Source of the DNA: Lepas anatifera
Lineage: Eukaryota; Arthropoda; Thecostraca; Lepadidae
Reading direction: 5' to 3'
Length of the DNA: 64,000 bases
Assembly: GCA_034440635.1 (NCBI GenBank)
Contig: JAOTON010001030.1
Location: 632,501 to 696,500, forward strand
Part shown: positions 7,704-64,000 of the stretch, piece after piece
Position numbering within the stretch: position 1 is the stretch's first letter
Layout: each line of letters starts with the position of its first letter
Made by a program: the position numbers and the translations under genes
The notes under the pieces: generated by a model
The model's input: only the letters and a program-made list of their open reading frames with translations
The model's database searches: none
Told to the model about the DNA's origin: nothing

Positions 7704-10241
7704 ATGGATTATCATGTGCTCTTCTGTGGCTCCATGGTTGCTGTTTGTTGTGCGTGCAAGTATATGGAAGTATATGGTCTCTTATGCTCTGTCTGCAAAT
7801 ATGCTATCATCATGCTATCTTTTCAGGACAAGCAGCCTGCGGATGAGGAGTCCCGGCCTAATTCCAACGGGAAAACACCGCTGCCACCTCCGTGGATTCC
7901 CGCCGCTGGTGATGCAAGCAATCCGGCAGATGAGAGACCCGCTGTTGGTCCTTGCGATGGAGGACCGCCATCTCAAAAACGTGACTCTGCAGTCGAGGAT
8001 AACTGTGGGCCGTTACCCGCAAAGCGAAGGGCTCTAGTGATAGATGACATCGGAAAGGCAGTGGGAAGTACTGGGCTGAGTGATCAAGATAAACTGTCTT
8101 TGCTTCAGCCGTGGAAAGCACCTACTGGTTTCCAGTGGCCGTTCACAGAAAGAAAGGACAGTGGAAAACTCAGGCGCAAATACCTTGGACCTCAACACTT
8201 TTCGAAGGAATATGATTGTTTTGCGTATTCAGAGTCTCAGAAAGGTGTGTTTTGTACCTCATGTGTCCTCTTTGGCGTCGAGAGTGCTGGTGGAGTGGCG
8301 CTGCAGAGGCTGGTGCGATCGCCACTGCAGAGGTACAGTCATCTTACTGGACGCGATGGCTACCTGACATCTCACCTCCAACATCAGTTCCATGCAGACA
8401 GTGCTATGAAAGCCGATGCATTCAAGCAACAAAAGAAGACTGGTTTGACTGTCGCTGAGGTTCAGAACGACGCGGCAGCAGCGGAACGGAAACGCAATAG
8501 AGCTGTGCTCTCTAGGATTATCAAGGCCATCGAGCACAGCGGCCGTCTCGGACAGCCTCTCCGTGGTCATCGGGATAGTGGCGTGCTAGATACGGGAGGT
8601 GATATCACCTATGGCGAGGGTGTTCTGCGTGCAAATCTAACACTTATGACGGAAAGTGGCGATGCCATCTTGAAGGAACACCTGGAAAGGTCTGCAAAGA
8701 ATGCCACTTACCTGTCGCCACAAACTCAAAACGAGCTGATTGACTGCATCGACAAGGTTGTGAAGCGTGAGATCGTCCAGGAAGTGTCATCGGCTGGCTT
8801 TTTCACCTTGCTTGCAGATGAAACGACAGATGCTGCAGGAATGGAGCAACTTTGCGTGTGCTTAAGGTATGTGCTGCCTGACCTGTCGATCAGAGAACGA
8901 CTGCTAGCGTTTCAGGAAGCGCCAAACCTGACTGGTGCCGGCCTAGCGTCCCAGCTTCTCGAAATTCTAGAAACGCTTGGCATAGACAAAAAGCTTATGG
9001 TCGGCCAAGGTTATGATGGCGCCGCGGCAATGTCCGGGTGCCATAACGGGGTGCAGAAGCACATTCATGACGAGTGTCCTGCTGCATCTTATGGGCACTG
9101 CTTCTCACATGCCCTCAATCTTTGCTTGGTGAAAGGCGCAGATGTACGGGAAATACAGGCTGCTCAGACAACCATGAAAGAAGCCTATGCATTTCTGCAG
9201 GACTCACCGAAACGCCTAAGGATCTTCCAAGAGAAGATCGCGGAACTCTGTCCTGCGACATCACGTGCAAGACTGAAGCGGCACTGTGAGACCCGTTGGG
9301 TCGAGAACCAGGAAGCAACAGTCGCCTTCCAAGAGCTTTACCCAGCAGTTATAGCTGCCGTGGAGGAGATCAGCCAATCAGATCCTCATGCTATGGGCAA
9401 GGCAACTGCGCTCAGCCGGGCTGTGACAGACCCGTCCTTCTTGCTGGCAATGGAAGTCCTGGCAGCTGTGCAGAATGTGACCAGGCCGCTCTCTCGACAG
9501 CTGCAAAGCCCCAGCCAAGATATTTTGCAGGCTGTGCGCAACGTGGACAGTGTCATGGACGTCCTGAAGGACTACAGAAAAGGAGAGAAGTTTGATGAGA
9601 TCTTCACGCAATGTGAAAAGAAGTACGGCGTGGAGGTACTCCTACCTCGTGTGCACGGACGGCAGAAACACCGGGCGAATCCACCTGCAGAAGACGCAAG
9701 GATGTACTATTGGCGCGCGGTGTTTCTGCCGTTCATAGACACGTGCCTCGTACAGCTAGAAGAGAAATTCAAGGCACATCGGGCAAAGGGCTCACAGTTG
9801 TGTTCCCTTCTCCCATCTGTTTGTGTGGAGCGCAGCTTCACAGACATCAACGATGCCGTAGAGATGTATCTGATATTTCTGGACTGCTCACGAGACGCTG
9901 TGCAGTCTGAGTTCGTCACATGGCAAGCGTACTGGCGGCGGCAGGAAGCGACGGAGAGACCCTCAACCGTCATCAGTGCCTTGCGCAAAGCGCGAGACGT
10001 AGGCTGTTTCCAAGCCATCACCACACTGCTGCAGATCTTCGCCACCCTCCCTGTGACGACAGCTAGCTGCGAGCGCTCATTCAGTGCACTGAAGTACTTG
10101 AAGAACTACCTGAGATCCACCATGACTGAGGCTCGCTTGAACGGGTTGACCATGCTGTTTGTGCATAAGGACATTGTGCTTGATGCTAATGCCGTGATTG
10201 AAATCTTTGGTCAGAAAAATAGGCGCCTGAGATTCGTCTAA
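7704..10241 (+). CDS. hAT transposase (TTF zinc finger, DUF4371-like, hAT C-terminal dimerisation)
   Basis: This predicted cut-and-paste transposase has 845 codons with no stop or frameshift. A TTF-type zinc-finger region lies at about residues 140-235 (C172, C184, C187 and the His cluster 224-230) and should bind the transposon ends. The RNase H-like catalytic core holds D372 in ADETTD, D438 in GQGYDGAA and E790 in SCERSFS, at the usual hAT D/D/E positions. The CHxxHxLNLC-like block is at 466-474 and the ETRW block lies downstream. The hAT C-terminal dimerisation region is at about 770-830. The first 40 residues are hydrophobic and Cys-rich, unlike the rest. An acceptor-like AG at 7827-7828 suggests that true coding starts at QDKQPADEE (residue 41) and the first 40 codons are intron. 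Domesticated ZMYM-like proteins share this architecture, but the intact TIRs and TSD here say transposon. Confidence 0.92.
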   Translation: MDYHVLFCGSMVAVCCACKYMEVYGLLCSVCKYAIIMLSFQDKQPADEESRPNSNGKTPLPPPWIPAAGDASNPADERPAVGPCDGGPPSQKRDSAVEDNCGPLPAKRRALVIDDIGKAVGSTGLSDQDKLSLLQPWKAPTGFQWPFTERKDSGKLRRKYLGPQHFSKEYDCFAYSESQKGVFCTSCVLFGVESAGGVALQRLVRSPLQRYSHLTGRDGYLTSHLQHQFHADSAMKADAFKQQKKTGLTVAEVQNDAAAAERKRNRAVLSRIIKAIEHSGRLGQPLRGHRDSGVLDTGGDITYGEGVLRANLTLMTESGDAILKEHLERSAKNATYLSPQTQNELIDCIDKVVKREIVQEVSSAGFFTLLADETTDAAGMEQLCVCLRYVLPDLSIRERLLAFQEAPNLTGAGLASQLLEILETLGIDKKLMVGQGYDGAAAMSGCHNGVQKHIHDECPAASYGHCFSHALNLCLVKGADVREIQAAQTTMKEAYAFLQDSPKRLRIFQEKIAELCPATSRARLKRHCETRWVENQEATVAFQELYPAVIAAVEEISQSDPHAMGKATALSRAVTDPSFLLAMEVLAAVQNVTRPLSRQLQSPSQDILQAVRNVDSVMDVLKDYRKGEKFDEIFTQCEKKYGVEVLLPRVHGRQKHRANPPAEDARMYYWRAVFLPFIDTCLVQLEEKFKAHRAKGSQLCSLLPSVCVERSFTDINDAVEMYLIFLDCSRDAVQSEFVTWQAYWRRQEATERPSTVISALRKARDVGCFQAITTLLQIFATLPVTTASCERSFSALKYLKNYLRSTMTEARLNGLTMLFVHKDIVLDANAVIEIFGQKNRRLRFV

Positions 10242-10579: not shown

Positions 10580-11290
10580 GATGCAACTATTATCCCGATT
10601 TTAAAACCTGATAGGATGGTAGTGACCCTTTACATTATAGACCTATTGCCCTGACATCGTGTGTTTGTAAAGTGTTAGAACGAATGCTAAACGCACGCCT
10701 AGTGTGGTTCGTGGAGAGCACCGGTTTTTTTTCTCTGAAGCTCAGTGTGGGTTTCGTGCGGGGCGTTCTACCACTGATCATCTTGTATCTTTGGACACAT
10801 CAGTGCGCTGCTCTCTCGCTTTGCGACAGCACGTGTTTGCTCTCTTATTTGACATCGATAAGGCCTACGACACGGCCTGGCGCCACGCAATTTTAAAGAA
10901 AGTGCGAAAAGCTGGTATCAAAGGCCACATGGGATATTTTATAGATAACTTTATGAAACGAGGTAATTTCAGAGCCAGAGTTGGCATTTCCTTGTCTGAC
11001 AACTTCTGCCAGGAGAGCGGGGTAGTCCAAGGAGGCGTTTTAAGCGTGACACTGTTCGGCATTTTGATAAACGACATTTGCGATGTCCTGCCCCCTACAG
11101 TCGAGATGTCGCTGTTCGTAGACGACTTTGCCGTGTGGTTAAGTACCTCCACGTCTATCTCAGCTCAAAGACAGCTAAAAATATGTATTGACCGGCTAAC
11201 CACATGGAGTCTGAAGAACGGTTTTAGATTTTCGACCGAAAAAACCGTGTTCTATGCTTTATCGAAGTTAGTGATGCCACGAAATACGTT
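10580..11290 (+). pseudogene. LINE reverse transcriptase
   Basis: The LINE resumes after the hAT. The segment near 10620-10690 encodes YRPIALTSC-like and KVLERML-like blocks. Frame 10704-11327 encodes CGFRAGRSTTDHL, the catalytic Asp block FDIDKAYDTAW, VVQGGVLSVTLF and the second catalytic block LFVDDFAVWL. FVDD replaces the more usual YADD/FADD. The N-terminal blocks are in a different frame (frameshift near 10700). The RT thumb is missing: after FSTEKTV the sequence passes within about 15 codons into RNase H, an internal deletion. Confidence 0.85.
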
Positions 11291-11942
11291 ATTTTCACCG
11301 ATAGCCTTAGCAGCATTCAAGCTGTGAGTGGTTTCAACCCAAGTGATGGACTTGTTTTAAACATTGTCCTGCGCTTAACCCGCCTCGCCAGACTGGGAAA
11401 GTATGTAACACTGCTGGATCCCAAGTCATGTTGGAATACAATTGAATGAAGTGGCAGACGCAGCGGCCCGACGTGCTTCCCGTAGGCCCTGCAGGCGTGC
11501 GCAACGAATCCCCGCTAGAGATTTGTACCCATATATATGTACTCACCTTCGCAGTGTATGGCAAGAACAATGGAATGATATAATAAATAACAAGTTGAAA
11601 GTTATCAAACCTGAGATCGGTGAGTGGCCATCCTCGCTGCGGCCTAACCGCCGTGAGGAGGTGGCGTTGTGTCGATTGCGGACTGGCCACACGCTGGCCA
11701 CTCACCGATATCTGTTATGCGGCGAACCTCGACCACAATGTCAGCGATGTGCGGCGCCCCTGTCGGTCCGACACGTGCTAGTCTCGTGCCCGGAATATGC
11801 TAGACACAGGTCTTTGCATTTTGGCGTGCACCGGCAGGAGTCCACACTTTTAGAATTGATCGGCCGTGACTCCAGTATGGTTGAACGGGTGCTGTCCTAT
11901 CTTAGAGACATTGACTTTACGATAATATTTGATCCTGGTTAA
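11280..11942 (+). pseudogene. LINE RNase H remnant and C-terminal zinc knuckle
   Basis: Sequence near 11280-11335 encodes FTDSLSSIQAV, the third catalytic block of RNase HI. Frame 11442-11942 opens with NEVADAAAR, the last RNase H block, and carries NRREEVALCRLRTGHT followed by a C..C..H..C knuckle ending in VRHVLVSCP, typical of the C terminus of I-type ORF2. The TDG and E blocks of RNase H are deleted. The RNase H frame is broken near 11330 and 11440. The stop codon is at 11940-11942. Confidence 0.8.
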
Positions 11943-17651: not shown

Positions 17652-19212
17652 TTGTATGGCGCTGAGAGAGTGTCACTTATTCGACTGTACCGTGCCCTGA
17701 TCAGGTCTGTCCTATATTACGGCCCAGTAGCATACGACAGCGCACTTAACAGCTTCAAACAGACCCTACAGGCTGTTCACCATTCCCGCATGAGAATAGC
17801 GACGGGTGCGTTCAGAACCTCCCGCAGAGCCAGTCTACTCGTCGACCGCCAACGAACTGCCGCTAGATCTTAGACATAAAAAGTTAGCACTCGCATCCAC
17901 CTGTCAGCTAGACACGACTTCACGTGGCGAGATCTGTATTTCACTGACTGCCGGCACCGGCCGCACGGCTGACCTGCCCACCGGTCCGACCCACACATAG
18001 CCTCCGGCAGCACCGCTCACCAGACACGCAAGGGCGCACCCAGCGCACCCACTGACAACACCAGCAAAATTCGTCAACATCCCTCCCACCCAACTCACAA
18101 ATGGATATTTGATGAGGTGTTAACAGCCCCTCTCGGAACAGTACTACGCTCGTCCTCACTTGCACTCTGGACACGCGTCTTACAATGGCTTGAGGGTTCT
18201 GAAATAAATCTGGAACAGATCGCTGAAACTAGACCGCAGCGCATAGAACCGTGGCGACTCACTCCTGCCAAATGCGACTTCGACTTGCTGCGCTACAAAA
18301 AGTCCTCGATTCTGCCCACAGAGTTCTTAAACTTAGCTCTGCACAAAATAGGAACCTACATAGAACACAGACCTTTCTATACCGACGGCTCTAAGGGCGC
18401 TAGAGGCGCCGGCAGTGCCTTCATGGGGGATGGTATCAGCCGGGGCTTTAGTTTGCCGGCGACTGTTTCAGTTTTTACCACGGAACTTAACGCTATTTTG
18501 CGCGTTTTACGACACATCAGACGCACCCCTGAAGAACGATGTATTATTATAACAGACTCAGCAAGTTCTTTGGCAGCCCTTCTGTCTCACCACACACAGC
18601 AGAACTGGCTCGTGCTGACGATCCGAAAGCTTCTGACAGTGATTGTCTCCCGAGGTACTGACGTGTGTTTTCGTTGGGTGCCGAGCCACGTTGGCATTTT
18701 AGGAAATGAACAAGTTGATAAATTAGCAAAAGATGCGTGTCAGTTGCCCCCCTTCGCACAGCTTAAAAATTCCAGCAACAGACTTCAAACCATCGTTTAA
18801 GATATTAGTAGATGCTGAGTGGCAGACCAGGTGGACTGCGGAGCCAGATTGCTTTTTGAAACGTCTGCTTCCATCGATTAAACCCTGGGAGTCGAGCAGC
18901 AGGAGAAATAGAAGGGAGGAGGTAAGCCTCACTAGGCTGCGAATAGGCCACTGTTACGCGACACACGCCCATTATCTACTTAACACCGCCCCCAAGCAAT
19001 GTTCGCACTCTGACAGCCGCCTCACTGTGCAGCATGTTTTATCTGCTACTGACAGTTGCGACCAGCTGAAACGAAGTCAGCTCCGATTCTTTCCATCGGT
19101 TCCGCTGATACAGATCTTAGGCGATGACCCACTCGTAGCTACTGCAAAAGTTTTGTCTTACCTGAGGAAAGAAGATTTTGACGTAGTATATACACCCATT
19201 AGAGATTCTTAG
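17652..19212 (+). pseudogene. LINE RT C-terminus, RNase H and zinc-knuckle region
   Basis: 17652-17873 encodes LIRLYRALIRSVLYYG and a following helical segment, the end of the RT. After frameshifts near 17875-18110, frame 18117-18800 carries a full RNase HI domain: FYTDGSKG, TELNAIL, IITDSASSL and WVPSHVGILGNEQVDKLAK, with all catalytic acids present. Another frameshift near 18760 leads to 18733-19212, which holds NRREEVSLTRLRIGH and the degenerate C-terminal knuckle. RNase H would remove the RNA template during target-primed synthesis. The copy is dead because of the frameshifts. Confidence 0.85.
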
Positions 19213-29892: not shown

Positions 29893-32800
29893 TTAATCAA
29901 TGTATGTCGCAGTTCGCCAGCGCACACGGAGACGATTCGGCGGGTTGCGCTGCCGATGACTGGAACGCTGTCCAATTCCCGTCTCCGACTCCGTCGCCGG
30001 GTTCACTGATGCTGCAACAGCATCGTCGCCGTCACCGTCGTCGGCAGCGTCGCCGTCACCGTCGTCGGCAGCGTCGCCGGCAGAGGATGACGAGGCCCCG
30101 CCATGGCCGCGGCAGCATGGAGCACTGTCGAGTTCAGGAGAATTGGCAACAGATGTCGCTGGCGGCGGAGGGACTCCGCCCGTCAGCAGTGGTCGGTGCC
30201 GGCGTAGGAAACGCCTGTTCCGCCAGTAAATCCGTCCACTGGCAAGCTTGACCAAGTAGGACCGACGCGCACCGATGTCGACGATCACACCGATCCGGTC
30301 CCACCGCTTCGTAGTTGGGTCTTGAATGTCCACATATGCTTCCATATGCAGACCACTGAGTGGACGAGCCGATGCATCATGACGATCTCTGGCCTTCCGG
30401 CGCAGCTCATCCGCTTTCGCGTCGCAGACGTCAGCTGCGCGTTGCCACTGGTCTGAGAAGGCGCGGTGGTGTGTGGGGATTTTCGTCCGTAGAGGGTGCC
30501 CAAATAATACCTGGGCCGGTGAACGCCCGTCTGCCCGGGGCGTGTTTCGAAATTCAAGAAGTGCAGTGTCAAACAACTCGTCATCTAGGTGGCCACTGGT
30601 GGACGCGACGTGGATCAGCTTTTTCATCGCTTTGACAGCCGACTCTGCATGCCCGTTTGCTCTGGCGTAGTGAGGAGACGATATTTCGTGCCGCACACCC
30701 CACTTGGTGAGGAAGCGGTTGACTGTTGATGAAGTAAACTGCGGCCCGCCGTTTGTCCGCAGAACGCTGGGAACCCCTGTTTGGGAAAACATGTGACGTA
30801 GAACCTTGATGAGGTTAGAGGCGGAAGCTTGTCCGGAGCATTTGGCGACGTAAGGCCAGCCAGACAGGCGATCCACGTACACTAGGTATGTTTTTCCCGC
30901 CGCATGAAAGTAGTCTGCTGAGACGGATTCAAAAACCCTCTCTGGCTTCTGCTCATCCACCCACAGCGGCTCATTGCAGTGACTGGGCAGCAGACGCCGG
31001 CAGCGTTGGCACGAACTGACGACGTTGGGGATGTCGTTATCTATCCCAGGCCAATAGACCGTCTGTCGGGCACGACGTATCGTCCTGTCGATGCCCTGGT
31101 GCCCATCATGAAGGCACGTGAGCACCTCGCGTCGCTGACTGGCAGGTACAACGAGACGGTGACCATAAACAATCAAACCGTCGTCGACGGCAAGCATGTC
31201 TCGAACTCGCCAGTACGGCCGCAGAGCAGGGTCTAGTCCATGCTGGTGGGCTGGAAAGCCTTGGAGCACCACCTGGCGGAGAAGACTGTAGTCTGGGTCT
31301 CGGGAAGCTGCGGCTCGGATTTTTTCGAGATTGCTGTCAACAACCGGTGCGAGGAGTGCACCAGTCTCACTCTCACGAGATGCGTCCAGTCCTGCTAGTA
31401 CAGCGGCATGAAGGATGCCATCATCATCAGATGTCGCCGCTGATTGCTTCGCCTCCAGTAAAGGTGGCGTTGTAGTCGTTGCCATGTTCCGCGCAACGGA
31501 CATGGGAGCTGGCAAGACTTGGGCCTTCATACATCCTGACGTAATATCAGGAGAGGTTGTTCTTGCCGTTGTGACGCTATCAGTCTGCAGAGGAGTGACT
31601 GTGCCCATCTGAGCTGGGAAGTCGTCAGGCAGTATTCCCAGTGAAATGGAATCAAACCAGCTTAGCAGCGTTCCATGTAGATCTTTGATGACGTACACGG
31701 TAACCGACGCCACCCTGGTTCCCAACTCCAGAATTGCGGAAAACTTTCCGATACACTTCAGTGGATTGTTCCCAGCAGCATTAAAGCTCACAGTGTTTTC
31801 AACTGGCTGGAGATGGGCTGTCCTGATTCCGAGAGTAAGTGCCGTCTCCCAACCCATGCAGGTGCCCTCGGCACCCGAATCAGGGCTTATGTTAATGGTG
31901 TCATCGCCGGCTGGATGAGTTATCCGAATCGGAATGGTTGGAGAACGTCGGACGGATAACCCGCGAATGGAGACGTCAGCCAGATTGACTGAAACTTGTT
32001 TGACATCTCCACCGCCACGGTCTGTTGGCTGCCAAGCTGCGCGGTCACGCGACCGCCGCGGGCTATGACCTCTTGGCACCGTGCCCGACTGGAGCCAGCC
32101 CACTGCAGCGGTCTCGCAGGGGCGGTTGTGCCGTGCGTTTGAGGTGGGGCTATGCTCGCGGGCATCGTGCCCGTGTTCTCGGCATCTCCAACAGGTGATG
32201 TCGGCGCCACGTCGGTCAGAGAACCGTCGCGGTGATGGGCTCCTTTGGCGAGGGGTTGCAGATTTTGCACGGTCCCGGCGATGCGCTGACACGCGGGCGA
32301 GTGATGAGTCGCCTCTGATGTCCTGACATGTGGCCTGCGCATTTTCACTCGCACGGCATATTTCAATCGCTTTCATGAGAGTCAGGCTTGGCATTTCGAG
32401 CATTCGCCGGACGGCCGTGTCGTCTCTAGAACCACATACAATCCTGTCCCGGAGCTGGTCGTCTGCACACGTTGAACAGAAATCGCAAAATGCCATGACT
32501 TCCTTTAGGCTACACAGGAAGTCATCGAAAGGCTCATCCGGTTCTTGTTGACGGGAAAAGAACTCGCGCCTGTCGATGATGATGGTCCGCTGACTGCGCA
32601 GATGGCGCTCCATTGCAGCGACGACATCAGGTACGGGCGTGTCGTCATTGATGCCGAGCCCGTACTTGGCAATGCGTGTCCAGTCTTCATCGAGCAGAGC
32701 CAATAGCAGTGCCCTTTGCTCTCGCACGGGGCATGCATTTGCTCGCGTCAACAGCATGTAGCCGTCAAACTTCTCTCTCCAAACCGAGAACTCCCCCAAA

Positions 32801-33057
32801 GAGACACATGAGGAGAGGTGTGGAGGAGGTGCTGCGTTTGCAGGAATCCGAGGCACAACGGCAGACTGATCCGAAGTGGAGTTGGCTATAGCCTGAGGGG
32901 TTAGCGATGGATGTGCGGCTAATGCGGCTTCAAGCATTCTTCCCAGCCGCTCCTCGCGCTGTGCTGATAATTCAGCTTGCTGCACTAGTAACGCTGAAAG
33001 TTTATCGATGTCACTCATTTCGCCCTTTAGCGCCATGTGTAGGCATTCACGAATCAC
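29893..33057 (-). CDS. Gag-protease-integrase polyprotein without RT/RNase H
   Basis: This open frame of 1054 codons begins with a GTG. The first ATG is codon 8 and a second ATG is codon 14. Gag-like N-terminal part: about 1-285. Zinc knuckle: C289, C292, H297 and H302 in place of the usual last Cys. Protease: SPDSGAEGT with D393, ending in LLSWFDSISLGIL (464-475). Integrase: HDGHQG and CQRC zinc-binding block (650-686), core D715, then N769 in RTNGGPQF where Asp is expected, and E805 in NGHAES with the usual 35-residue spacing. A chromodomain/GPY-like tail region lies at about 905-955, then a low-complexity D/A/G-rich end. A typical pol has RT and RNase H between protease and integrase. Here about 100 residues of linker join them in frame, so the loss kept the frame open. 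The N769 codon is AAC, one transition from GAC. The integrase is predicted inactive. Confidence 0.9.
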   Translation of the reverse strand: MIRECLHMALKGEMSDIDKLSALLVQQAELSAQREERLGRMLEAALAAHPSLTPQAIANSTSDQSAVVPRIPANAAPPPHLSSCVSLGEFSVWREKFDGYMLLTRANACPVREQRALLLALLDEDWTRIAKYGLGINDDTPVPDVVAAMERHLRSQRTIIIDRREFFSRQQEPDEPFDDFLCSLKEVMAFCDFCSTCADDQLRDRIVCGSRDDTAVRRMLEMPSLTLMKAIEICRASENAQATCQDIRGDSSLARVSAHRRDRAKSATPRQRSPSPRRFSDRRGADITCWRCREHGHDAREHSPTSNARHNRPCETAAVGWLQSGTVPRGHSPRRSRDRAAWQPTDRGGGDVKQVSVNLADVSIRGLSVRRSPTIPIRITHPAGDDTINISPDSGAEGTCMGWETALTLGIRTAHLQPVENTVSFNAAGNNPLKCIGKFSAILELGTRVASVTVYVIKDLHGTLLSWFDSISLGILPDDFPAQMGTVTPLQTDSVTTARTTSPDITSGCMKAQVLPAPMSVARNMATTTTPPLLEAKQSAATSDDDGILHAAVLAGLDASRESETGALLAPVVDSNLEKIRAAASRDPDYSLLRQVVLQGFPAHQHGLDPALRPYWRVRDMLAVDDGLIVYGHRLVVPASQRREVLTCLHDGHQGIDRTIRRARQTVYWPGIDNDIPNVVSSCQRCRRLLPSHCNEPLWVDEQKPERVFESVSADYFHAAGKTYLVYVDRLSGWPYVAKCSGQASASNLIKVLRHMFSQTGVPSVLRTNGGPQFTSSTVNRFLTKWGVRHEISSPHYARANGHAESAVKAMKKLIHVASTSGHLDDELFDTALLEFRNTPRADGRSPAQVLFGHPLRTKIPTHHRAFSDQWQRAADVCDAKADELRRKARDRHDASARPLSGLHMEAYVDIQDPTTKRWDRIGVIVDIGARRSYLVKLASGRIYWRNRRFLRRHRPLLTGGVPPPPATSVANSPELDSAPCCRGHGGASSSSAGDAADDGDGDAADDGDGDDAVAASVNPATESETGIGQRSSHRQRNPPNRLRVRWRTATYID

Positions 33058-33062
33058 TAATC

Positions 33063-33072
33063 GACCGCGCCA
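33063..33072 (-). promoter_or_regulatory. Primer-binding site (tRNA primer)
   Basis: TGGCGCGGTC on the minus strand directly follows the 5' LTR end (...TTTACA). Position and TGGCGC start fit a Gypsy PBS. The primer tRNA was not identified. Confidence 0.6.
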
Positions 33073-33246
33073 TGTAAAGTTCCGATTTCCCCAACACTAG
33101 TGAGTAGCTTACAATGGCGTATTCCAGCACATGCCCGCTGGGCACGCTACCTCCAGCCAACTGACGCCGGCTGGTCCACACCGCCCGGTCACCGCAGGTC
33201 GGAGTCTAAGCTCCGCCCACAACTCAATGGCAGGCTGAACACCACA
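33073..33246 (-). repeat. 5' LTR, 174 bp
   Basis: Begins TGTGGTGTTC and ends GAACTTTACA on the minus strand (TG...CA). It matches both halves of the split 3' LTR. Very short for an LTR. Confidence 0.92.
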
Positions 33247-34485: not shown

Positions 34486-34985
34486 ATTGTGGGCCTGCCC
34501 TCTCCCCCCACTGTCCGTGAAAATTCCCCAATTGCGGTCAAATTGGGGAAAACCTGAAAGTATCAAGCGGCCAGAATCCGACGCGTGTTTTATTCTAGAA
34601 GTGAGGCTTTCTTGTCAGCCGGAGGTGCTAAATTACTTGACCCCTCGACTTGACTTTTTCTGGTGGCAACATTCATGTAAAACCTGAACCCTTTCGCTTC
34701 TGGGTTTATTTTAGTTCTATATTTTGGTCACCAAGTTTATATTTTTACTGTGACCCGGACATACGACTTTTAGCTGTTGATAATGCATCATCAGGAAGCA
34801 GCCGTTCCAACCGCCAGACACTGAATTTGGCAGGACGCTCCCCTAGCATTGTACTATTTTCCACAGCCCAGTCCTATGGAAGACGAATAAAAGCAAGGAA
34901 AATAAGCCGCATCACCGAATTAGGAAGGACAATAACGAAACACCAACGTCGTTTCGTTTTCCCCCTTTAGCCTTACTACCTATCG
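34486..34985. other. No gene recognised
   Basis: Short frames only. The frame 34650-34970 has no known motif. Confidence 0.4.
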
Positions 34986-36097
34986 GGATAAGGTACTTTC
35001 AGAACCTTTCACAGTTAATAATGGAGTCAGGCAGGGTGGTTGCACCTCTCCTCTCCTCTTCAGTATCTACATTGATAGTTTGCTTGATAAAGTACAGTCA
35101 TCGAGATTAGGATGTCACATCAATGATTGTGCTGTTAACGTTCTTGCTTATGCTGACGACGTTGTCTTGTTATCTCCAGCAAGACACGGCCTACAGGAAC
35201 TAGTCACACTCTATGAAAACTTTGCAGTTTGGATGGATATAAAATGTAATGTAAAAAAGACGGTCTGCATGATGTTTCACGGCAAGAAGATGCGACATCT
35301 CTTTGGTCCAGGTAGCAGGACAACCAGCATTGTGTTAGACGGTACCCAGCTTAGTTGAGTCCAGGAATTTAAATACCTAGGCCACATTGTAACTCCGACT
35401 CTTTGCGATGCCTCAGACATATCTAGAGCAAAAAGAGCAGTTTACTTTAGCACAAATAGACTGAAAGCTAAGATTGGCTATGCAAATAAAAAGGACACTT
35501 GCTAAATTGTTCCAAACTTACTGCGGGCATCTGTTCGGTAGTGTGCTTTGAAACATTGAAAACTCTAAAATTACTCTCCGGAAATTTGTGGTGGTGACTA
35601 CTTGGTAAGCCGCTGCATCATAGCAACCATATTATCTGTGACGAATTTGATATTTTTACCTTCGCACTACAGGATGTAAAAAATAAGCTGCTGTTTAAGA
35701 AAGCTCTTTCCACAAGTAACAACTCCATTTTAGCTACTTTGAGGACTAGCAAAGTCTCTCTTGAAGGAATTTTAGCCCAAAATTGCTTGTGTATTAGAAG
35801 AAAATATGGCCTCTTGGAATTAGATTTGGATAGTAGCTCCTACTCAGACATTAGGCGTTGCTTGAGAGGTATGATATCGCACAAAGCTGCAGAAATCAAA
35901 GAAGGCATTGGCTGATTTAATGTCGATTAGGGCTGCCTCAAACAGTGTTTTAGGCAAGTATTATGTATTATATAATGTTTTATGTGTATTTGACTGATGA
36001 ATTCTGATATGCACGTGTACTGGTATTTGAGGTGTATGTGAATGCATGTGTGATATACACCATGAGTATGAAATAAACATTATTATTATTATTAGCT
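34986..36097 (+). pseudogene. CR1-like LINE RT fragment with (ATT)n tail
   Basis: The frame through 35000-35358 encodes NGVRQGGCTSPLLFSIYI (RT block B) and LAYADDVVLLSPARHG (catalytic YADD), then an FHGKKMRH thumb segment. A single TGA at 35356-35358 interrupts it, and EFKYLGH continues in the same frame. A later frame near 35640-35910 encodes more C-terminal sequence. The element ends in an ATT tract at 36080-36097. The YADD motif is intact, but the 5' truncation and stops make it dead. The clade (CR1/L2/Daphne-like) was assigned from motif style only. Confidence 0.7.
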
Positions 36098-47944: not shown

Positions 47945-48650
47945 AGGGTTGCGGACCAAAGTACGTAAGGAAGAAGTTCGTATGCCTAAAGTACGTACGC
48001 AAAAGTACGTATGGCTAAAGTACGTATAGATAAAGTACGTACGTGTATAATAATCGTAATGGAAAAGGTTCGTATGGAAAAAGTTCGTACGGTTTAAAGT
48101 ACGTAGGGGTAAAATGTTCGTAATGGAAAAAGTTCGTATGGAAAAAGTTCGTACGGGTTAAAGTACGTAGGGGTAAAATGTTCGTAATGTAAAAAAGTTC
48201 GTACGGGTTAAAGTACGTAGGGGTAAATCCGAGTGGGTTGCGGACCAAAGTACGTAAGGAAGAAGTTCGTATGCCTAAAGTACGTACGCAAAAGAACGTA
48301 TGGCTAAGTGCGTATAGATAAAGTACGTATGTACGTGTATAATAGTTGTAATGGAAAAAGTTGGGATGGAAAAAGTTCGTACGGGTTAAAGTACGTAGGG
48401 GTAAATCCGAGTGGGTTGCAGACCAAAGTACGTAAGGAAGAAGTTTGTATGCCTAAAGTACGTACGCAAAAGTACGTATGGCTAAAGCACGTATAGATAA
48501 AGTATGTACGTGTATAATAATCGTAATGGAAAAAGTTCATATGGAAAAAGTTCGTACGGGTTAAAGTACGTAGGGGTAAAATGATCGTAATGTAAAAAGT
48601 TCGTACGGGTTAAAGTACGTAGGGGTAAAATGTTCGTAATGGCGGTGCCA
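47945..48650. repeat. GTACGT-rich tandem array, forward orientation
   Basis: Three or more units of about 180-290 bp, each starting near TTGCGGACCAAAGTACGTAA and built of 12-bp-scale words AAAGTACGTA / AAAGTTCGTA. The palindrome GTACGTAC and TACGTA recur throughout. Confidence 0.85.
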
Positions 48651-48725
48651 GGTTAAGGTAATCAATCACCTGCCCGCATCTCGCCGGGCTTTCAAATAGC
48701 TTGAGCGCAGTGGCGGATATCTATG

Positions 48726-48822
48726 ACCATTGGCCAGGGGCGTCGCCACCGGGGGTCCTGGCGGACCGGGCCCTCCCGCTCTCGGAAAGTGGCGGGGAGG
48801 GGCCAGCCCCCGCTTTTGGACG
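48726..48822. mobile_element. Left end of a CGTCGCCACCGG-family MITE (truncated)
   Basis: CAGGGGCGTCGCCACCGGGG near 48735 matches the terminus of the family at 13093 and 44946. The rest is replaced by the array that follows. Confidence 0.5.
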
Positions 48823-49300
48823 TACTTTTGGCATATAAGTTTTATACCCTACGTACTTTTGGCATACGTGTTTTATACCCTACGTAAATTTTCTTACGAA
48901 CTTTTGCGTACGTACTTTTGGCATACGAGTTTTATACCCTACGTACATTTGCTTACGAACTTTTGCGTACGTGCTTTTGCGTGTACGTACTTTTGGCATA
49001 CGAGTTTTATACCCTACGTACATTTGCTTACGAACTTTTGCGTACGTACTTTTGGCATACGAGTTTTATACCCTACGTACATTTGCTTACGAACTTTTGC
49101 GTACGTACTTTGCGTACGTACTTTTGGCATACGAGTTTTATACCCTACGTACATTTGCTTACGAACTTTTGCGTACGTACTTTTGCGTACGTACTTTTGG
49201 CATACGAGTTTTATACCCTACGTACATTTGCTTACGAACTTTTGCTTACGAAGTTTATCTATACGTACTTTAGCCATACGAACTTTGGTCCGTAAATCGA
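48820..49300. repeat. GTACGT-rich tandem array, inverted orientation
   Basis: About 60-bp units (CGTACGTACTTTTGGCATAC, then GAGTTTTATACCCTACGTAC, then ATTTGCTTACGAACTTTTG) repeat with deletions. Words are the complements of those in 47945-48650, so the two arrays can fold together. A unit length near a multiple of 3 leaves a 233-codon open frame (48730-49431) that is not a gene. Confidence 0.85.
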
Positions 49301-51928: not shown

Positions 51929-53415
51929 GATTGAATTTATATTTGGAGCCAAAATCTTCCAGCATCCACAAAGGCAGACATTGCCAGCTGGCACGACTGC
52001 AATGACATTGGAGGTGAGGGAGAGCCAGTGGTGGCCTGGTTAGACGAAACGCTCCCAGTCGCGGCGGAACGAATAGCGTGGACCACAGCCACAGACCCGG
52101 GGCTCGGGTTGGTCTTGGGATGCGTGCGGTCAGGAATTTGGCCAAAGAAATCGGAAGATAGTAGGACTTCAGCCTTTTTGCAGCTTAGGGAGCGACTAGT
52201 TGTAACAGATGGCTGCCTTCAAGTGGGGGGGGGGTTTGTAATTCCTCATAAATCCAGGGCTCAGCTGTTAAGGGAGCTGCACATTGGACATATGGGAGTA
52301 TGTAAAATGAAGTCGCTGGCTCGTGGATTCCTCTGGTGGCCAGGCATCGATGAGGAAATCGAGAGGGTGAGCCAGACTTGTGTTGAATGTCAAAATCATG
52401 CACAGATGCCAAAACCTAGCATCGCTCATCCATGGGTATACATACCATGGATGGATGCATGCTCAGGATCCCTCAGCTCCGTCAGCATGCTGAGGGGGCT
52501 GAGTGATATGCGGAGGGGATATATCCCTCCGGGCCGTGGGACAGAATTCACATCGATTTTGCATCTCTGTATGGCAAAGCGTTTCTAGTGGCGTTAAATG
52601 CCTTCTCAAATAGGCCGTAGGTGGAAGAAATGTGTGGAACGAGCGCATCAAAACGATAGAAGCCCTGACAAAGAATATTTGCCTCACATGGGCTCCCAAA
52701 ATGTTCTGGTGTCCGACAATGGCCCACCATTTACCTCTGATGAATTCGACAGGTATCTAGAGTCTCGAGGCATCTATCATCGTCGGACGCCACCGTATTG
52801 TTCAGCGCAGAACGGCCAAGCGGAATCCGTGGTTGGCACCGTGAAAACCTTTCTGAAGCAAGTCCTTGCCGGCCGCCGCCGCCGAGCGATTGGGCAGTTT
52901 CTCGCGCGGTATCGCATCACGCCGCGCACCGCCGCAGCCGCCGAGCGCCGGCCCAAATGATGCTCGAAAGACTGCCCCCAAACAAGCTGACACTGTTGAA
53001 GCCGTCTCTGTCATATCGCATGCAGAGCTTCGAGCCGTTCGATGCCTCCCGAGGTTTCCAACCGGGAGACCGAGTGCTGCTGCGCGACTTAAGACCAGGT
53101 TCGTCTCAGAAGTGGGGACGGGGTCAGGTGGTCAGTCGAGCTGGTCCTCTTGTCTACGATGTCACCGTAGATGACAGGCAGCGTCGAGCGCACTTAGATC
53201 ATCTTTTACCAGATCGCTCGCGACAGGCGGTAGAACTGATCCCAGCACGGAACTTTCATCGGGAGTCGGAATCGACTGGTATCGCATTCCCACCAGAGCC
53301 AGCCGTCTCAGAGCGTGAACGGGAGAAGCCGGCGGATAGTTCGACTCGAGAAGACGCGCCGGGTGAAGCGGCTGAATTTCCCAAAAGAATAAAGAACAAG
53401 CTGGCGCAGCCTTGA
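51929..53415 (+). pseudogene. Ty3/Gypsy integrase region (continues 46973-47359)
   Basis: Frame 52028-52588 carries the linker, an HIGHMG...ARGFLWWPGIDEEI...CVECQ zinc-binding block (H,H,C,C). The catalytic core is frameshifted: the first Asp block (HIDF) lies in another frame near 52545-52560. SDNGPPFTSDEF (second Asp) and NGQAES (Glu) are in frame 52598-52960. Frame 52798-53415 then holds a PGDRVLLRDLR and GPLVYDV GPY/F-like C-terminal domain and the stop at 53413. Frameshifts make it non-functional. Unlike the LTR element at 25530, its second catalytic Asp is present. Confidence 0.85.
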
Positions 53416-54918: not shown

Positions 54919-55092
54919 CCTTCCACATATTCGGGCCCATGGGCAAGCTGGCTATTGAGGTGATCCAGATCGGATTCCTGTTCGGCATCGCTGTGAGCTT
55001 CTTCGTGATCGCCGGAGACCTCGGCCCGAAGATCCTGGCACAACTATTGGACGTGCCCTACAGCGACAGGTTCCGCGCCGTCTTCCTCATTG
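54919..55092 (+). CDS. Probable exon of an SLC38A10-like amino-acid transporter
   Basis: The frame encodes AFHIFGPMGKLAIEVIQIGF, then FGIAVSFFVIAGDLG and PKILAQLLDV. This matches the style of transmembrane segment 3 and its flanks in SLC38-family (amino acid/auxin permease fold) proteins, closest in my memory to SLC38A10 (AFH..G..GK...E...IG...G...F.V.GDLG). Such proteins move neutral amino acids across membranes. The hydrophobic segment spans about residues 10-30. An in-frame stop lies upstream, so the exon should begin at an acceptor AG; the best candidate is CCGGCAG ending at 54918, though its pyrimidine tract is poor. The likely donor is G|GTCAGT at 55092/55093, at the start of a tandem repeat. 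No other exon was found in the window, so it may also be a pseudogene fragment. Confidence 0.6.
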
Positions 55093-55440
55093 GTCAGTCC
55101 ACCCCGTCTCTGTTCAGGGCCGTCTTCCTCATTGGTCAGTCCCGCCCCTCTCTGTTCAGGGCCGTCTTCCTCATTGGTCAGTCCACCCCCTCTCTGTTCA
55201 GGGCCGTCTTCCTCATTGGTCAGTCCACCCCCTCTCTTCAGGGCCGTCTTCCTCATTGGTCAGTCTTCCCCCTCTTAGTTCCGTCCATCTTTTTCATTGG
55301 TCAGTCTGCCCCTTCTCAGTTCCGTCCATCTTTCTCATTGGTCAGTCTGCCCCCTCTCATTTCCATCCGTCTTTCTCATTGGTCAGTCTGCCCTCTCTCA
55401 GTTCCGCCCATCCGTCCCATTGCTCAGCCGTCTCTGTCTC
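55070..55440. repeat. 42-bp minisatellite derived from the exon end
   Basis: The unit is about 42 bp: TTCAGGGCCGTCTTCCTCAT followed by TGGTCAGTCCACCCCCTCTC and TG. Around eight copies run from 55070, the later ones more diverged (CCGTCCATCTTTTTCATTGG). The first copy overlaps the 3' end of the SLC38A10-like exon, and each copy repeats its putative splice donor. 42 is a multiple of 3, so it stays open in frame with the exon (to a stop at 55484). Confidence 0.9.
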
Positions 55441-55484
55441 TCAGTCCTCTCCTTCCTCGTTGCTCAGTCTGCGCCCCTTCCTGA

Positions 55485-55885
55485 CGTGTGATCCACTCTG
55501 TGGGGGATGGGGGTAACGGTCAAGTCAAGTATTAACCGCGTGACGCTCATAAAAATATAACTCTGTTTTGTATTTGTATTTATTTAATTCATTGGCCACG
55601 GGATGACCCCAATAAAAGGCAAAGTAGATGACATAAAGCACTGTGTGGAGTGTGTGGGTGTAATCGGAAAAATTCCCAACGGGCTGAGTAATATCTTATT
55701 TTAAGGCTTGGTTTACTATAAGGTATAAGTTCACAATAGGGTTTGACATGAAAATCATTCTATTCTTGCACTTGATTTTCAAGCTCAATTTGAATTTTCG
55801 CGAACCACAATACACCGGCAATCATTTAAAATCTCATCTCGCCTATCTCATGTGATATTATCGCGATCAACTTACACTTTACACT
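55485..55885. other. No gene recognised
   Basis: An AT-rich spacer between the 42-bp and the 40-bp repeats. Confidence 0.5.
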
Positions 55886-55887
55886 AT

Positions 55888-58800
55888 GCATTCGGTTGTA
55901 ACAGTGGCCTGTCGTGTGGTCCACTCCATGGGTGTGTGTAACAGTTTCCTGTCGTGTGGTCCACTCCGTGAGTGTGTGTAACTGTGGCCTGTCGTGTGGT
56001 CCACTCCGTGGGGGGGTGTAACATTGGCCTGTCGTGTGGTCCACTCCGTGGGTGTGTGTTACAGTGGCCTGTCGTGTGGTCCACTCCGTGGGGGGGCGTG
56101 TAACAGTGGCCTGTCGTGTCGTTCACTCCGTGGGTGTGTGTAACAGTGGCCTGTCGTGTGGTCCACTCCGTGGGTGTGTTACAGTGGCCTGTCGAGTGGT
56201 TCCACTCCGTGGGGGGTGTAACAGTGGCCTGTCGTGTGGTCCACTCCGTGGGTGTATGTAACAGTGGCCTGTCGTGTGGTCCACTCCGTGGGTGTGTGTT
56301 ACTGTGGCCTGTCGTGTGGTCCACTCCGTGGGGGTGTAACAATGGCCTGTCGTGTGGTCCACTCCGTGAGTGTGTGTAACAGTGGCCTGTCGTGTGGTCC
56401 ACTCCGTGGGGGGTGTAACATTGGCCTGTCGTGTGGTCCACTCCGTGGGTATGTGTTACAGTGGCCTGTCGTGTGGTCCACTCCGTGGGGGTGTAACAGT
56501 GGCCTGTCGTGTGGTCCACTCCATGGGTGGGTGTAACAGTGGCCTGTCGTGTGGTCCACTCCGTGGGTGTGTGTAACAGTGGCCTGTCGTGTGGTTCCAC
56601 TCCGTGGGTGGCTGTAACAGTGGCCTGTCGTGTGGTCCACTCCGTGGGTGTGTGTAACAGTGGCCTGTCGTGTGGTCCACTCCGTGGGGAGGGTGTAACA
56701 GTGGCCTGTCGTGTGGTCCACTTCGTGGCGGGTGTAACAGTGGCCTGTCGTGTGGTCCACTCCGTGGGGGTGTAACAGTGGCCTGTCGTGTGGTCCACTC
56801 CGTGGGGGGGTGTAACAGTGGCCTGTCGTATGGTCCACTCCGTGGGTGGGTGTAACAGTGGCCTGTCGTGTGGTCCACTTCGTGGTGGTGTAACAGTGGC
56901 CTGTCGTGTGGTCCACTCCGTGGGGTGGGGTGTAACAGTGGCCTGTCGTCTGGTCCACTCCGTGGGTGTGTGTAACAGTGGCCTGTCGTGTGGTCCACTC
57001 CGTGGATGTGTGTAACAGTGGCCTGTCGCGTGGTCCACTTCGTGGGGGGGGGTGTAACAGTGGCCTGTCGTGTGGTCCACTCCGTGGGGGGGTGTAACAG
57101 TGGCCTGTCGCGTGGTCCACTCCGTGGGCGGCTGTAACAGTGGCCTGTCGTGTGGTCCACTCCGTGGGTGTGTGTAACAGTGGCTTGTCGTGTGGTCCAC
57201 TCCGTGGGGAGCGGGTGTAACAGTGGCCTGTCGCGTGGTCCACTCCGTGGGGTGGGGTGTAACAGTTTCCTGTTGTATGGTCCACTCCGTGGGTGGTGTG
57301 TAACAGTGGCCTGTCGTGTGGTCCACTCCGTGAAGGTGTGTAACTGTGGCTCGTCGTGTGGTCCACTCCGTGTGGGGGGGGTGTAGCATTGGCCTGTCGT
57401 CTGGTCCACTCTGTGGGTGTGTGTAACAGTTTCCTGTCGTGTGGTCCACTCCGTGGGTGTGTGTAACAGTGGCCTGTCGTGTGGTCCACTCCGTGGGGGT
57501 GGGGTGTAACAGTGGCCTGTCGTGTGGTCCACTCCGTGGAGTGTGTGTAACTGTGGCCTGTCGTGTGGTCCACTCCGTGGGGGTGTAACATTGGCCTGTC
57601 GTGTGGCTCCACTCCGTGGGTGTGTGTAACAGTGGCCTGTCGTGTGGTCCACTCCGTGGGGGGGGGGGTGTAACAGTGGCCTGTCGTGTGGTCCACTCCA
57701 TGGGTGGGTGTAACAGTTTCCTGTCGTGTGGTCCACTCCGTGGGTGTGTGTAACAGTGGCCTGTCGTGTGGTCCACTCCGTGGGTGGCTGTAACAGTGGC
57801 CTGTCGTGTGGTCCACTCCGTGGGGTGTGTAACAGTGGCCTGTCGTGTGGTCCACTCCGTGGGGGTGTAACAGTGGCCTGTCGTGTGGTCCACTTCGTGG
57901 CGGTGTAACAGTGGCCTGTCGTGTGGTCCACTCCGTGGGGGGGTGTAACAGTGGCCTGTCGTGTGGTCCACTCCGTGGGTGGGTGTAACAGTAGCCTGTC
58001 GTATGGTCCACTCCGTGGGGGGGTGTAACAGTGGCCTGTCGTGTGGTCCACTTCGTGGGGGTGTAACAGTGGCCTGTCGTGTGGTCCACTCCGTGGGGGG
58101 TGTAACAGTGGCCTGTCGTCTGGTCCACTCCGTGGGTGTGTGTAACAGTGGCCTGTCGTGTGGTCCACTCCGTGGGGGTGTAACAGTGGCCTGTCGTGTG
58201 GTCCACTCCGTGGGTGTGCGTAACAGTGGCCTGTCGTATGGTCCACTCCGTGGGTGGGTGTAACAGTGGCCTGTCGTGTGGTCCACTCCGTGGGGTGTGT
58301 AACAGTGGCCTGTCGTGTGGTCCACTCCGTGGGTGTGCGTAACAGTGGCCTGTCGTATGGTCCACTCCGTGGGTGTGTGTAACAGTGGCCTGTCGTGTGG
58401 TCCACTCCGTGGGTGTGTAACAGTGGCCTGTCGTGTGGTCCACTCCGTGGGGGGGGGTGTAACAGTGGCCTGTCGTGTGGTCCACTCCGTGGGTGTGTGT
58501 AACAGTGGCCTGTCGTGTGGTCCACTCCGTGAGTGTGTAACAGTGGCCTGTCGTGTGGTCCACTCCGTGTGGGGGGGTGTAACAGTGGCCTGTCGTGTGG
58601 TCCACTCCGTGGGTGTGCGTAACAGTGGCCTGTCGTGTGGTCCACTCCGTGGGTGTGTGTAACAGTGGCCTGTCGTGTGGTCCACTCCGTGGGTGTGTAA
58701 CAGTGGCCTGTCGTGTGGTCCACTCCGTGGGTGGGTGTAACAGTGGCCTGTCGTGTGGTCCACTCCGTGGGTGTGTGTAACAGTGGCCTGTCGTGTGGTC

Positions 58801-61800: not shown

Positions 61801-64000
61801 ACTGTGGCCTGTCGTGTGGTCCACTCCGTGGGGGGTGTGTAACTGTGGCTCGTCGTGTGGTCCACTCCGTGTGGGGGGGTGTAGCATTGGCCTGTCGTCT
61901 GGTCCACTCTGTGGGTGTGTGTAACAGTTGCCTGTCGTGTGGTCCACTCCGTGGGTGTGTGTAACAGTGGCCTGTCGTGTGGTCCACTCCGTGGGGGGTG
62001 TAACAGTGGCCTGTCGTGTGGTCCACTCCGTGGGTGTGTGTAACTGTGGCCTGTCGTGTGGTCCACTCTGTGTGGGGGTGTAACATTGGCCTGTCGTATG
62101 GTCCACTCCGTGGGTGTGTGTAACAGTTTCCTGTCGTGTGGTCCACTCCGTGGGTGTGTGTAACAGTGGCCTGTCATGTGGTCCACTCCGTGGGGGGGGG
62201 TGTAACAGTGGCCTGTCGTGTGGTCCACTTCGTGGGTGTGTGTAACAGTGGCCTGTCGTGTGGTCCATTCCGTGTGGGGGGTTGTAACATTGGCCTGTCG
62301 TGTGGTCCACTCTGTGGGTGTGTGTAACAGTGGCCTGTCGTGTGGTCCACTCCGTGTGGGGGTTGTAACATTGACCTGTCTGTGGTCCACTTCGTGGGGG
62401 GGTGTAACAGTGGCCTGTCGTGTGGTCCACTCCGTGGGTGTGTGTAACAGTGGCCTGTCGTGTGGTCCACTCCGTGGGTGTGTGTAACAGTGGCCTGTCG
62501 TGTGGTCCACTCTCTGGGAGTGTGTAACAGTGGCCTGTCATGTGGTCCACTCTGTGGGAGTGTGTAACAGTGGCCTGTCGTGTGGTCCACTCCATGTGGG
62601 GGGGGTGTAACATTGGCCTGTCGTGTGGTCCGCTCTGTGGGTGTGTGTAACAGTGGCCTGTCGTGTGGTCCACTCCGTGTGGGGGGGTGTAACATTGGCC
62701 TGTCGTGTGGTCCACTCTGTGGGTGTGTGTAACAGTTTCCTGTCGTGTGGTCCACTCCGTGGGTGTGTGTAACAGTGGCCTGTCGTGTGGTCCATTCCGT
62801 GTGGGGGGGGTGTAACATTGGCCTGTCGTGTGGTCCACTCTGTGGGGTGTGTAACAGTGGCCTGTCGTGTGGTCCACTCCGTGGGTGTGTGTAACAGTGG
62901 CCTGTCGTGTGGTCCACTTCGTGGGTGTGTGTAACAGTGGCCTGTCGTGTGGTCCACTTCGTGGGGGGTGTAACAGTGGCCTGTCGTGTGGTCCACTTCG
63001 TGGGGGGGTGTAATTGTGGCCTGTCGTGTGGTCCACTCCGTGGGTGTGTGTAACAGTGGCCTGTCGTGTGGTCCACTCTCTGGGAGTGTGTAACAGTGGC
63101 CTGTCGTGTGGTCCACTTCGTGGGTGTGTGTAACAGTGGCCTGTCGTGTGGTCCATTCCGTGTGGGGGGTGTAACATTGGCCTGTCGTGTGGTCCACTCT
63201 GTGGGTGTGTAACAGTGGCCTGTCGTGTGGTCCACTCCGTGGGTGTGTGTAACAGTGGCCTGTCGTGTGGTCCACTTCGTGGGTGTGTGTAACAGTGGCC
63301 TGTCGTCTGGTCCACTCCGTGTGGGGGGTGTAACATTGGCCTGTCGTGTGGTCCACTTCGTGGGGTGTGTAACAGTGGCCTGTCGTGTGGTCCACTCCGT
63401 GGGTGTGTGTAACAGTGGCCTGTCGTGTGGTCCACTCCGTGGGTGTGTGTAACAGTGGCCTGTCGTGTGGTCCACTTCGTGGGTGTGTGTAACAGTGGCC
63501 TGTCGTGTGGTCCACTTCGTGGGGGTGTGCAACAGTGGCCTGTCGTGTGGTCCACTCCGTGGGTGTGTGTAACAGTGGCCTGTCGTGTGGTCCACTTCGT
63601 GGGGGGGTGTAACAGTGGCCTGTCGTGTGGTCCACTCCGTGGGTGGGTGTAACAGTGGCCTGTCGTGTGGTCCACTCCGTGGGTGTGTGTAACAGTGGCC
63701 TGTCGTGTGGTCCACTCTCTGGGAGTGTGTAACAGTGGCCTGTAGTGTGGTCCACTCCGTGGGGTGTGTAACAGTGGCCTGTCGTGTGGTCCACTCTGTG
63801 GGGGGGTGTAACATTGGCCTGTCGTGTGGTCCACTCTGTGGGTGTGTGTAACAGTGGCCTGTCGTGTGGTCCACTCCGTGGGTGTGTGTAACAGTGGCCT
63901 GTCGTGTGGTCCACTCTCTGGGAGTGTGTAACAGTGGCCTGTCGTATGGTCCACTCCGTGGGTGTGTGTAACAGTGGCCTGTCGTGTGGTCCACTCTCTG
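55888..64000. repeat. 40-bp minisatellite, over 8.1 kb, open at the window end
   Basis: The core is TAACAGTGGCCTGTCGTGTG followed by GTCCACTCCGTGGGTGTGTG (40 bp). Length varies (about 36-43 bp) through a G-run/GT linker. About 200 units fit in the window and the array continues beyond 64000. Each unit contains the near-palindrome GTGGTCCAC and the small hairpin CCAC-TCC-GTGG. Point variants (CGTATGG, CGCGTGG, AGTTTCC, GGCTTGT, GGCTCGT) mark sub-blocks. The minus strand lacks stops in all three phases and 40 leaves remainder 1 on division by 3, so minus frames cycle through three 13-residue patterns (HTHGVDHTTGHCY, THPRSGPHDRPLL, TPTEWTTRQATVT) for up to 1896 codons. These frames have no initiation context or non-repeat sequence and should not be called genes. 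Confidence 0.97.

Follow-up and report, generated by a model that had tools for sequence, protein, structure and literature searches.

The subject of this analysis is a 64,000-nucleotide stretch of the Lepas anatifera genome, hereafter the window (contig C971, positions 632501-696500, within a 1.04-Gb assembly). Here, an exon of an SLC38A10-like transporter gene runs into a minisatellite with a repeat unit that contains both the end of the exon and its splice donor. We consider it likely, with a probability of about 0.77, that this is a minisatellite of the type named mirages in amphioxus, located in intron 3 of a gene that looks functional. The first donor would be the working site, and the other units would be intronic.

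A minisatellite contains the exon 3 splice donor

The exon (exon 3; exons 3 to 7 carry the numbering of the present analysis) spans positions 54919-55092 of the window, on the forward strand. It is 174 nt long, begins at the acceptor ggcag|CC and ends ATTG|GTCAGT, in phase 1. The first codon is split with the preceding exon, and the product is AFHIFGPMGKLAIEVIQIGFLFGIAVSFFVIAGDLGPKILAQLLDVPYSDRFRAVFLI followed by the first base of the next codon. An array of 41-42-bp units, on the same strand, occupies positions 55070-55481. Eight units with an intact donor (55070-55399) are followed by two decayed units (55400-55481). A first-pass annotation of the window had described the exon as running straight into a repeat of about 42 bp. 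Tandem Repeats Finder (TRF) confirms this, with a call at 55077-55404 (period 42, 7.9 copies, 90% matches, score 397) that is far above chance. The repeat unit consists of the final 23 nt of exon 3 and 19 nt of intron, the boundary between the two being set by the homologue family and exon 4. The same annotation had suggested that a host exon end and its donor were amplified, and this composition is in agreement.

The donors are marked by the sequence GGTCAGT, found on the forward strand at 55092, 55134, 55176, 55218, 55258, 55299, 55340 and 55381. A single further forward-strand occurrence in the 64 kb, at 53130, is outside the array. There are, as anticipated, seven extra donors downstream of the first, and all eight share the core TTG|GTCAGTC. 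The units start at 55070, 55112, 55154, 55196, 55236, 55277, 55318, 55359, 55400 and 55440, with lengths, in order, of 42, 42, 42, 40, 41, 41, 41, 41, 40 and 42 bp. Successive donors are separated by 42, 42, 42, 40, 41, 41 and 41 nt. GTCAGT is kept in eight of the ten units; those at 55400 and 55440 have lost the GT and read GCTCAG instead. Similarity is 93-95% within units 2-4 and 85-95% within units 6-8, which make up another group, and units 9 and 10 share 66-76% with the others. An alignment of units 1-8 has 25 invariant columns out of 42.

Two ENA protein fragments (P0001 and P0002) show 84-86% identity to exon 3 and share its exon end. Note that only the peptides were compared. They have a common sequence as far as FFLCGE, beyond which the two differ, as expected if each were read through a G|GTGAG donor into a different intron. 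P0001 contains no second copy of the repeat in the 13 residues (about one unit) past the exon; P0002 has only 7 such residues, too few to judge. Since the two fragments share the exon end, and P0001 lacks the repeat within 13 residues, the comparison suggests that the donor predates the array.

Exon 3 appears to belong to a live gene

Exon 3 aligns with human SLC38A10 (tblastn E 5e-9). By itself, the exon matches the Pfam domain Aa_trans with E 3.5e-5 and 23.1 bits, slightly under the cut-off of 25.6. A piece of the human protein was used to collect homologues (120 listed of 154), which are mostly vertebrate and partly redundant. Among the matches listed, the top named homologues of the exon are from insects: Ladona fulva (P0107, 55% identity), Habropoda (53%) and Lygus (48%). 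When 122 proteins were compared with the window by tblastn, 112 pieces aligned at exon 3, and the rest of the window gave no piece at E < 0.1. A row at C971:719888 (P0106, E 0.023) contains stops and was discarded as chance. A sequence search of the PDB using exon 3 found no match. The Ladona fulva model P0107 has extra residues (67-95) directly before AFHAFG. These are probably a retained intron, which would put an intron at the exon 3 acceptor point.

With an E limit of 10, searching the assembly with P0107 produced six matches (ten candidates scored). Five are colinear on the forward strand of C971, at 687415, 698058, 699374, 1039252 and 1096458; the first, at exon 3, covers C971:687415-687600. 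The sixth is weak (E 0.30) and on another contig. Joined at donor 1, exons 3 to 7 give 229 codons without a stop, have GT-AG at every internal site, and score 113.3 bits against Aa_trans (PF01490; cut-off 25.6). Exon 6 likewise ends at a GTCAGT donor (locus L023, 1646-1663; C971:1039397-1039414). The intron between exons 5 and 6 is about 340 kb. Our data point to a live-looking gene with very large introns and, apparently, no close second copy.

The first-pass annotation had raised the objection that exon 3 might be a pseudogene copy. Exons 1 and 2 were not found, whether within the window or in as much of the 70 kb upstream as was readable (264 kb examined in all), which would fit a dead or stray exon. 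A genome-wide search with one arthropod query did not find them either, its two candidates being weak (E 0.4 and 1.5). What answers this objection is that five open exons are colinear on a single contig; the only other match is the weak one described above. Giant introns do occur in the gene, as the one of about 340 kb illustrates. We regard a dead copy as very improbable.

Only some of the extra donors preserve the reading frame

Donor 1 (GTCAGT, 55093-55098) is the proposed working 5' splice site, and its phase fits exon 4. At the predicted junction, ATTG|GGCTTT, the protein would read FRAVFLI-G-LCFLIVLPLSL. Donors 2, 3 and 4, at 55135, 55177 and 55219 (span 55135-55224), add 42, 84 and 126 nt. 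This equates to 14, 28 and 42 residues, in frame and with no stop. Of the first three added units, two encode the 14-mer GQSTPSLFRAVFLI and one encodes GQSRPSLFRAVFLI. Donors 5-8 (55259-55387) behave differently: +166 nt is out of frame, +207 nt (donor 6) is in frame with no stop, and +248 and +289 nt are both out. The first-pass annotation held that every donor would be in frame, because 42 is three times 14. This is correct for the first four donors, and for the sixth, since two later length changes restore the frame there. Donors 5, 7 and 8 break the rule. Hence, the frame is kept by four of the seven extra donors (2, 3, 4 and 6) and lost at the other three.

Two other ends for exon 3 were considered on the basis of U1 pairing, which is -5.0 kcal/mol for the GTCAGT donor. 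These were GAG|GTGATC, after 54959 (-6.8 kcal/mol), and CAG|GTTCCG, after 55069 (-6.1 kcal/mol). Both were rejected, since neither is in phase 1, as exon 4 needs, and family-conserved residues would be lost.

Protein spacing favours donor 1

We took the distance from the motif (G/A)DL to LPLxL as the spacing between transmembrane segments 3 and 4 (TM3-TM4). It was readable in 87 of the 122 proteins, and the remaining 35 failed the pattern. Across these 87 homologues, which are mostly vertebrate and in many cases closely related, spacing was 33 in one, 37 in five, 38 in 79 and 39 in two. It was between 37 and 39 in 86 of the 87 and never longer than 39; the values for three named insects are 37, 38 and 38. 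With donor 1 the spacing is 38, compared with 52, 66 and 80 for donors 2, 3 and 4. Similarly, of three forms scanned with Aa_trans, that using donor 1 scored highest (113.3 bits, compared with 107.0 for donor 2 and 100.7 for donor 4). Note that this evidence, the principal case for donor 1, concerns the normal protein, not minor isoforms.

The first-pass annotation had instead proposed that splicing could choose among the donors. Taken further, several in-frame donors would be used, producing transporter isoforms in which the TM3-TM4 loop is 14, 28 or 42 residues longer, and repeat number would vary between individuals. Only the loop would lengthen, because the in-frame donors among the first four all rebuild the FRAVFLI|G junction. 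Several features fit this scheme. Donors 2-4 are in frame, free of stops, and identical in their core, which is invariant across eight units. Furthermore, units 2-4 are 93-95% alike, and therefore probably young. There is also a parallel in the human IFI6 minisatellite, where transcripts are said to use two downstream units as donors (PMC4526556). Conversely, none of the 87 measurable homologues has longer spacing, the Pfam score drops with the insert, and three of the seven extra donors shift the frame. Regular splicing has also been reported for amphioxus mirages. A choice among donors is thus not supported: donor 1 alone gives the near-invariant family spacing, and its form has the highest domain score of those scanned. 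We consider such isoforms unlikely, and retain donor 1 as the probable working site.

Some observations do not sit comfortably with donor 1 as the working site and the other seven as bystanders. Because the eight donor cores are identical, intrinsic strength gives donor 1 no edge. The GTCAGT donor is also mediocre; 17% of 3,146 GT sites pair with U1 equally well or better. The differences in Pfam score are small and largely the cost of any insert. Our homologue set is based on a human query, mostly vertebrate and partly redundant. The failure to find exons 1 and 2 belongs here too. Finally, a 13-nt donor core, TCATTGGTCAGTC, is invariant in all eight units (permutation p 0.0056), which is not expected of donors that act purely as decoys. 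We take this as a hint only, because tandem units are not independent. When all ten units are included, the longest invariant run is 4 (p 0.20). An RNA structure that hides the donors was not evident, as the array folds no better than shuffled sequences (z 0.76). Scans of the window for Rfam families (at gathering scores) and tRNAs gave zero matches.

Our favoured account is as follows. A 42-bp segment at the boundary of exon 3 and intron 3 was amplified in tandem, and more diverged units lie downstream of the near-identical units 2-4 beside the exon. Units 2-4 may be the younger ones, with turnover by slippage or unequal exchange. Constitutive use of donor 1 would then restore the normal transporter. 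The seven other donors would be decoys, normally silent, and removed with intron 3.

In units 2-5 (55112-55276) we noticed, by eye, a pyrimidine-rich stretch ending TTCAG|GG, with the donor 17 nt further on. Therefore, each of these units could supply an acceptor-like site before its donor.

Intron 3 is composed largely of tandem repeats

The exon that follows was located outside the window. The predicted exon 4 acceptor, GTGCTAACACTGGCTGCCGTGACAG|GGCTTTGTTTTCTG, is at C971:698070/698071, equivalent to position 65570/65571 and 1,571 bases past the window end. Measured from donor 1, intron 3 is 10,478 nt. TRF arrays span 10,024 of 10,477 nt (approximately 96%; the intron was measured one base short). 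Most of this is a second minisatellite, with a 40-bp unit, on the forward strand. It begins at 55897, continues through the window end at 64000, and stops at 65534 (C971:698034), giving 240 copies over 9.6 kb. A detached relic of the 40-bp unit, recognised by local alignment on the same strand, is found at 55480-55520. This lies between the two arrays, some 375 nt before the 40-bp array.

The 40-bp array stops 36 nt short of the end of intron 3. This 36-nt stretch can be aligned with the 40-bp unit (GTGTGCTAACACTGG-CTGCCGTG compared with GTGTG-TAACAGTGGCCTGTCGTG), with 20 matches in 24 columns. Equal or better alignment scores were obtained in 13 of 5,000 shuffles and for 2 of 6,705 regional 28-mers. 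The exon 4 acceptor thus appears to be in a decayed final unit of the array. TAACA is present 210 times in the stretch containing the 40-bp array, and CTAAC once, in the piece beside the exon 4 acceptor. These data are no more than suggestive that the array was copied from the region of the branch point and acceptor; the array may have grown either from the acceptor or towards it.

Taken to its conclusion, both splice sites of intron 3 would have supplied tandem copies from which the intron was rebuilt, with the donor-bearing 42-bp array at the 5' end and, at the 3' end, the 9.6-kb array whose 40-bp unit resembles the region of the branch point and acceptor. Changing the repeat number could then lengthen the TM3-TM4 loop in steps of 14 residues, without harm to the next helix, so that the array acts as a self-duplicating splice site. 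We think this improbable.

The introns that follow also contain arrays: 44 bp x 12, 56 bp x 5.6, 48 bp x 17.7 and 27 bp x 44.5. These are from loci L024, L026 (C971:698350-699302), L023 (from 2312) and L025 (from 1948), the last two being cut by the locus end. Since later introns have minisatellites too, the introns of the SLC38A10-like gene are repeat-rich. Alternatively, exon 3 may be nothing special: in a region so rich in minisatellites, some arrays would extend over splice sites by chance and have no connection with splicing. Such a scenario is compatible with use of donor 1, and we judge it only slightly less probable than not. Tandem repeats account for 14.6-16.2% of 248 kb of surrounding contig outside intron 3 (16.2% of 248,323 bases). 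The 264 kb examined contain 38 strong arrays, counting the two in intron 3. Of the ten splice sites of exons 3 to 7, one (the exon 3 donor) is inside a TRF array and one (the exon 4 acceptor) is 36 nt away. For three later exons, the nearest arrays are 75 to 655 nt off, and exons 6 and 7 have no array within the 1.5 kb examined upstream. With array coverage of around 15-19%, one or two sites in ten is the chance expectation. Set against this, the 42-bp unit is built from exon sequence, and P0001 has the same exon end with no second copy within 13 residues. Hence, the array looks to have been seeded at the splice site, rather than to have drifted there.

Comparison with known boundary minisatellites

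The first-pass annotation considered a repeated splice site of this sort to be a novelty. The kind is already known. In amphioxus, repeats at exon-intron boundaries of Adh3 were named mirages, and also occur in the globin genes BflGb6 and BflGb9 (PMC3087553). Further cases are PGBD5, which was likened to mirages, and troponin C, by citation (PMC3902484). Both 5' and 3' boundaries are susceptible, and the Adh3 units are 10-72 bp (PMC3087553, PMC3902484). Data for Adh3, and RT-PCR for the globins, suggested normal splicing (PMC3087553; similar in PMC3902484), and length and somatic instability have been reported (PMC3087553). The array described here is alike in spanning an exon-intron boundary, with the splice signal GTCAGT kept in eight of ten units. 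It differs in two ways. First, mirages were described in cephalochordates, whereas the closest named homologues of exon 3, among the matches listed, are from insects. Second, the present intron has arrays at or near both of its ends and is approximately 96% tandem repeat.

Other systems offer partial parallels. The minisatellite of human IFI6 (6-16) supplies donors, and use of two downstream units is cited from Turri et al. 1995 (PMC4526556). In both IFI6 and exon 3, a minisatellite furnishes multiple donors at the end of an exon. Use of downstream units has been reported for IFI6, whereas in the present array it would be hypothetical, and three of seven extra donors are out of frame. Minisatellites at exon-intron boundaries can also alter splicing in human paralogues (PMC2812944). 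Those internal tandem repeats, which are alike in being able to change splicing at a boundary, sit in paralogues from recent segmental duplications. The present gene has no strong second match in the genome. In Drosophila, tandem duplication of proto-splice sites gave rise to some new introns (PMC2891723). This is another instance of splice-site sequence copied in tandem in an arthropod. There, new introns were created, whereas the present intron seems older than the array.

Judged by titles and the openings of abstracts, mostly for papers available without subscription, we found no donor-bearing boundary minisatellite in an arthropod. A family of prawn lectins in which the repeats vary (PMC7536079) was assessed in the same way. 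What is unusual here is that one intron has arrays at or close to each of its ends, and that the first in-frame donors would rebuild the same junction. Amplification of a donor by a minisatellite, described in the sources consulted for amphioxus and, in the sense of supplying donors, for human IFI6, here extends to a conserved transporter gene of an arthropod. The locus is a natural setting in which to test how one of eight equal donors, approximately 42 nt apart, is selected in splicing. It similarly allows a test of minisatellite turnover as a seed for protein length variants or new introns. Since minisatellites make up about 15% of the measured part of the contig, similar cases may be common, and could be counted in the genome.

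Other features of the window

Positions 47958-49286 contain nested arrays based on the motifs AAAGTACGTA and TACGTACTTT, with opposite orientation either side of approximately 48700. Remains of mobile elements are located at 1926-2720, 7704-10238, 10671-11324, 17973-18797, 29896-33096 (reverse strand), 34936-35355 and 51935-52957. They include a hAT-type transposase, pieces of an LTR-type integrase, a non-LTR endonuclease, reverse transcriptase and RNase H, with a Pfam match in eight of the ten frames scanned.
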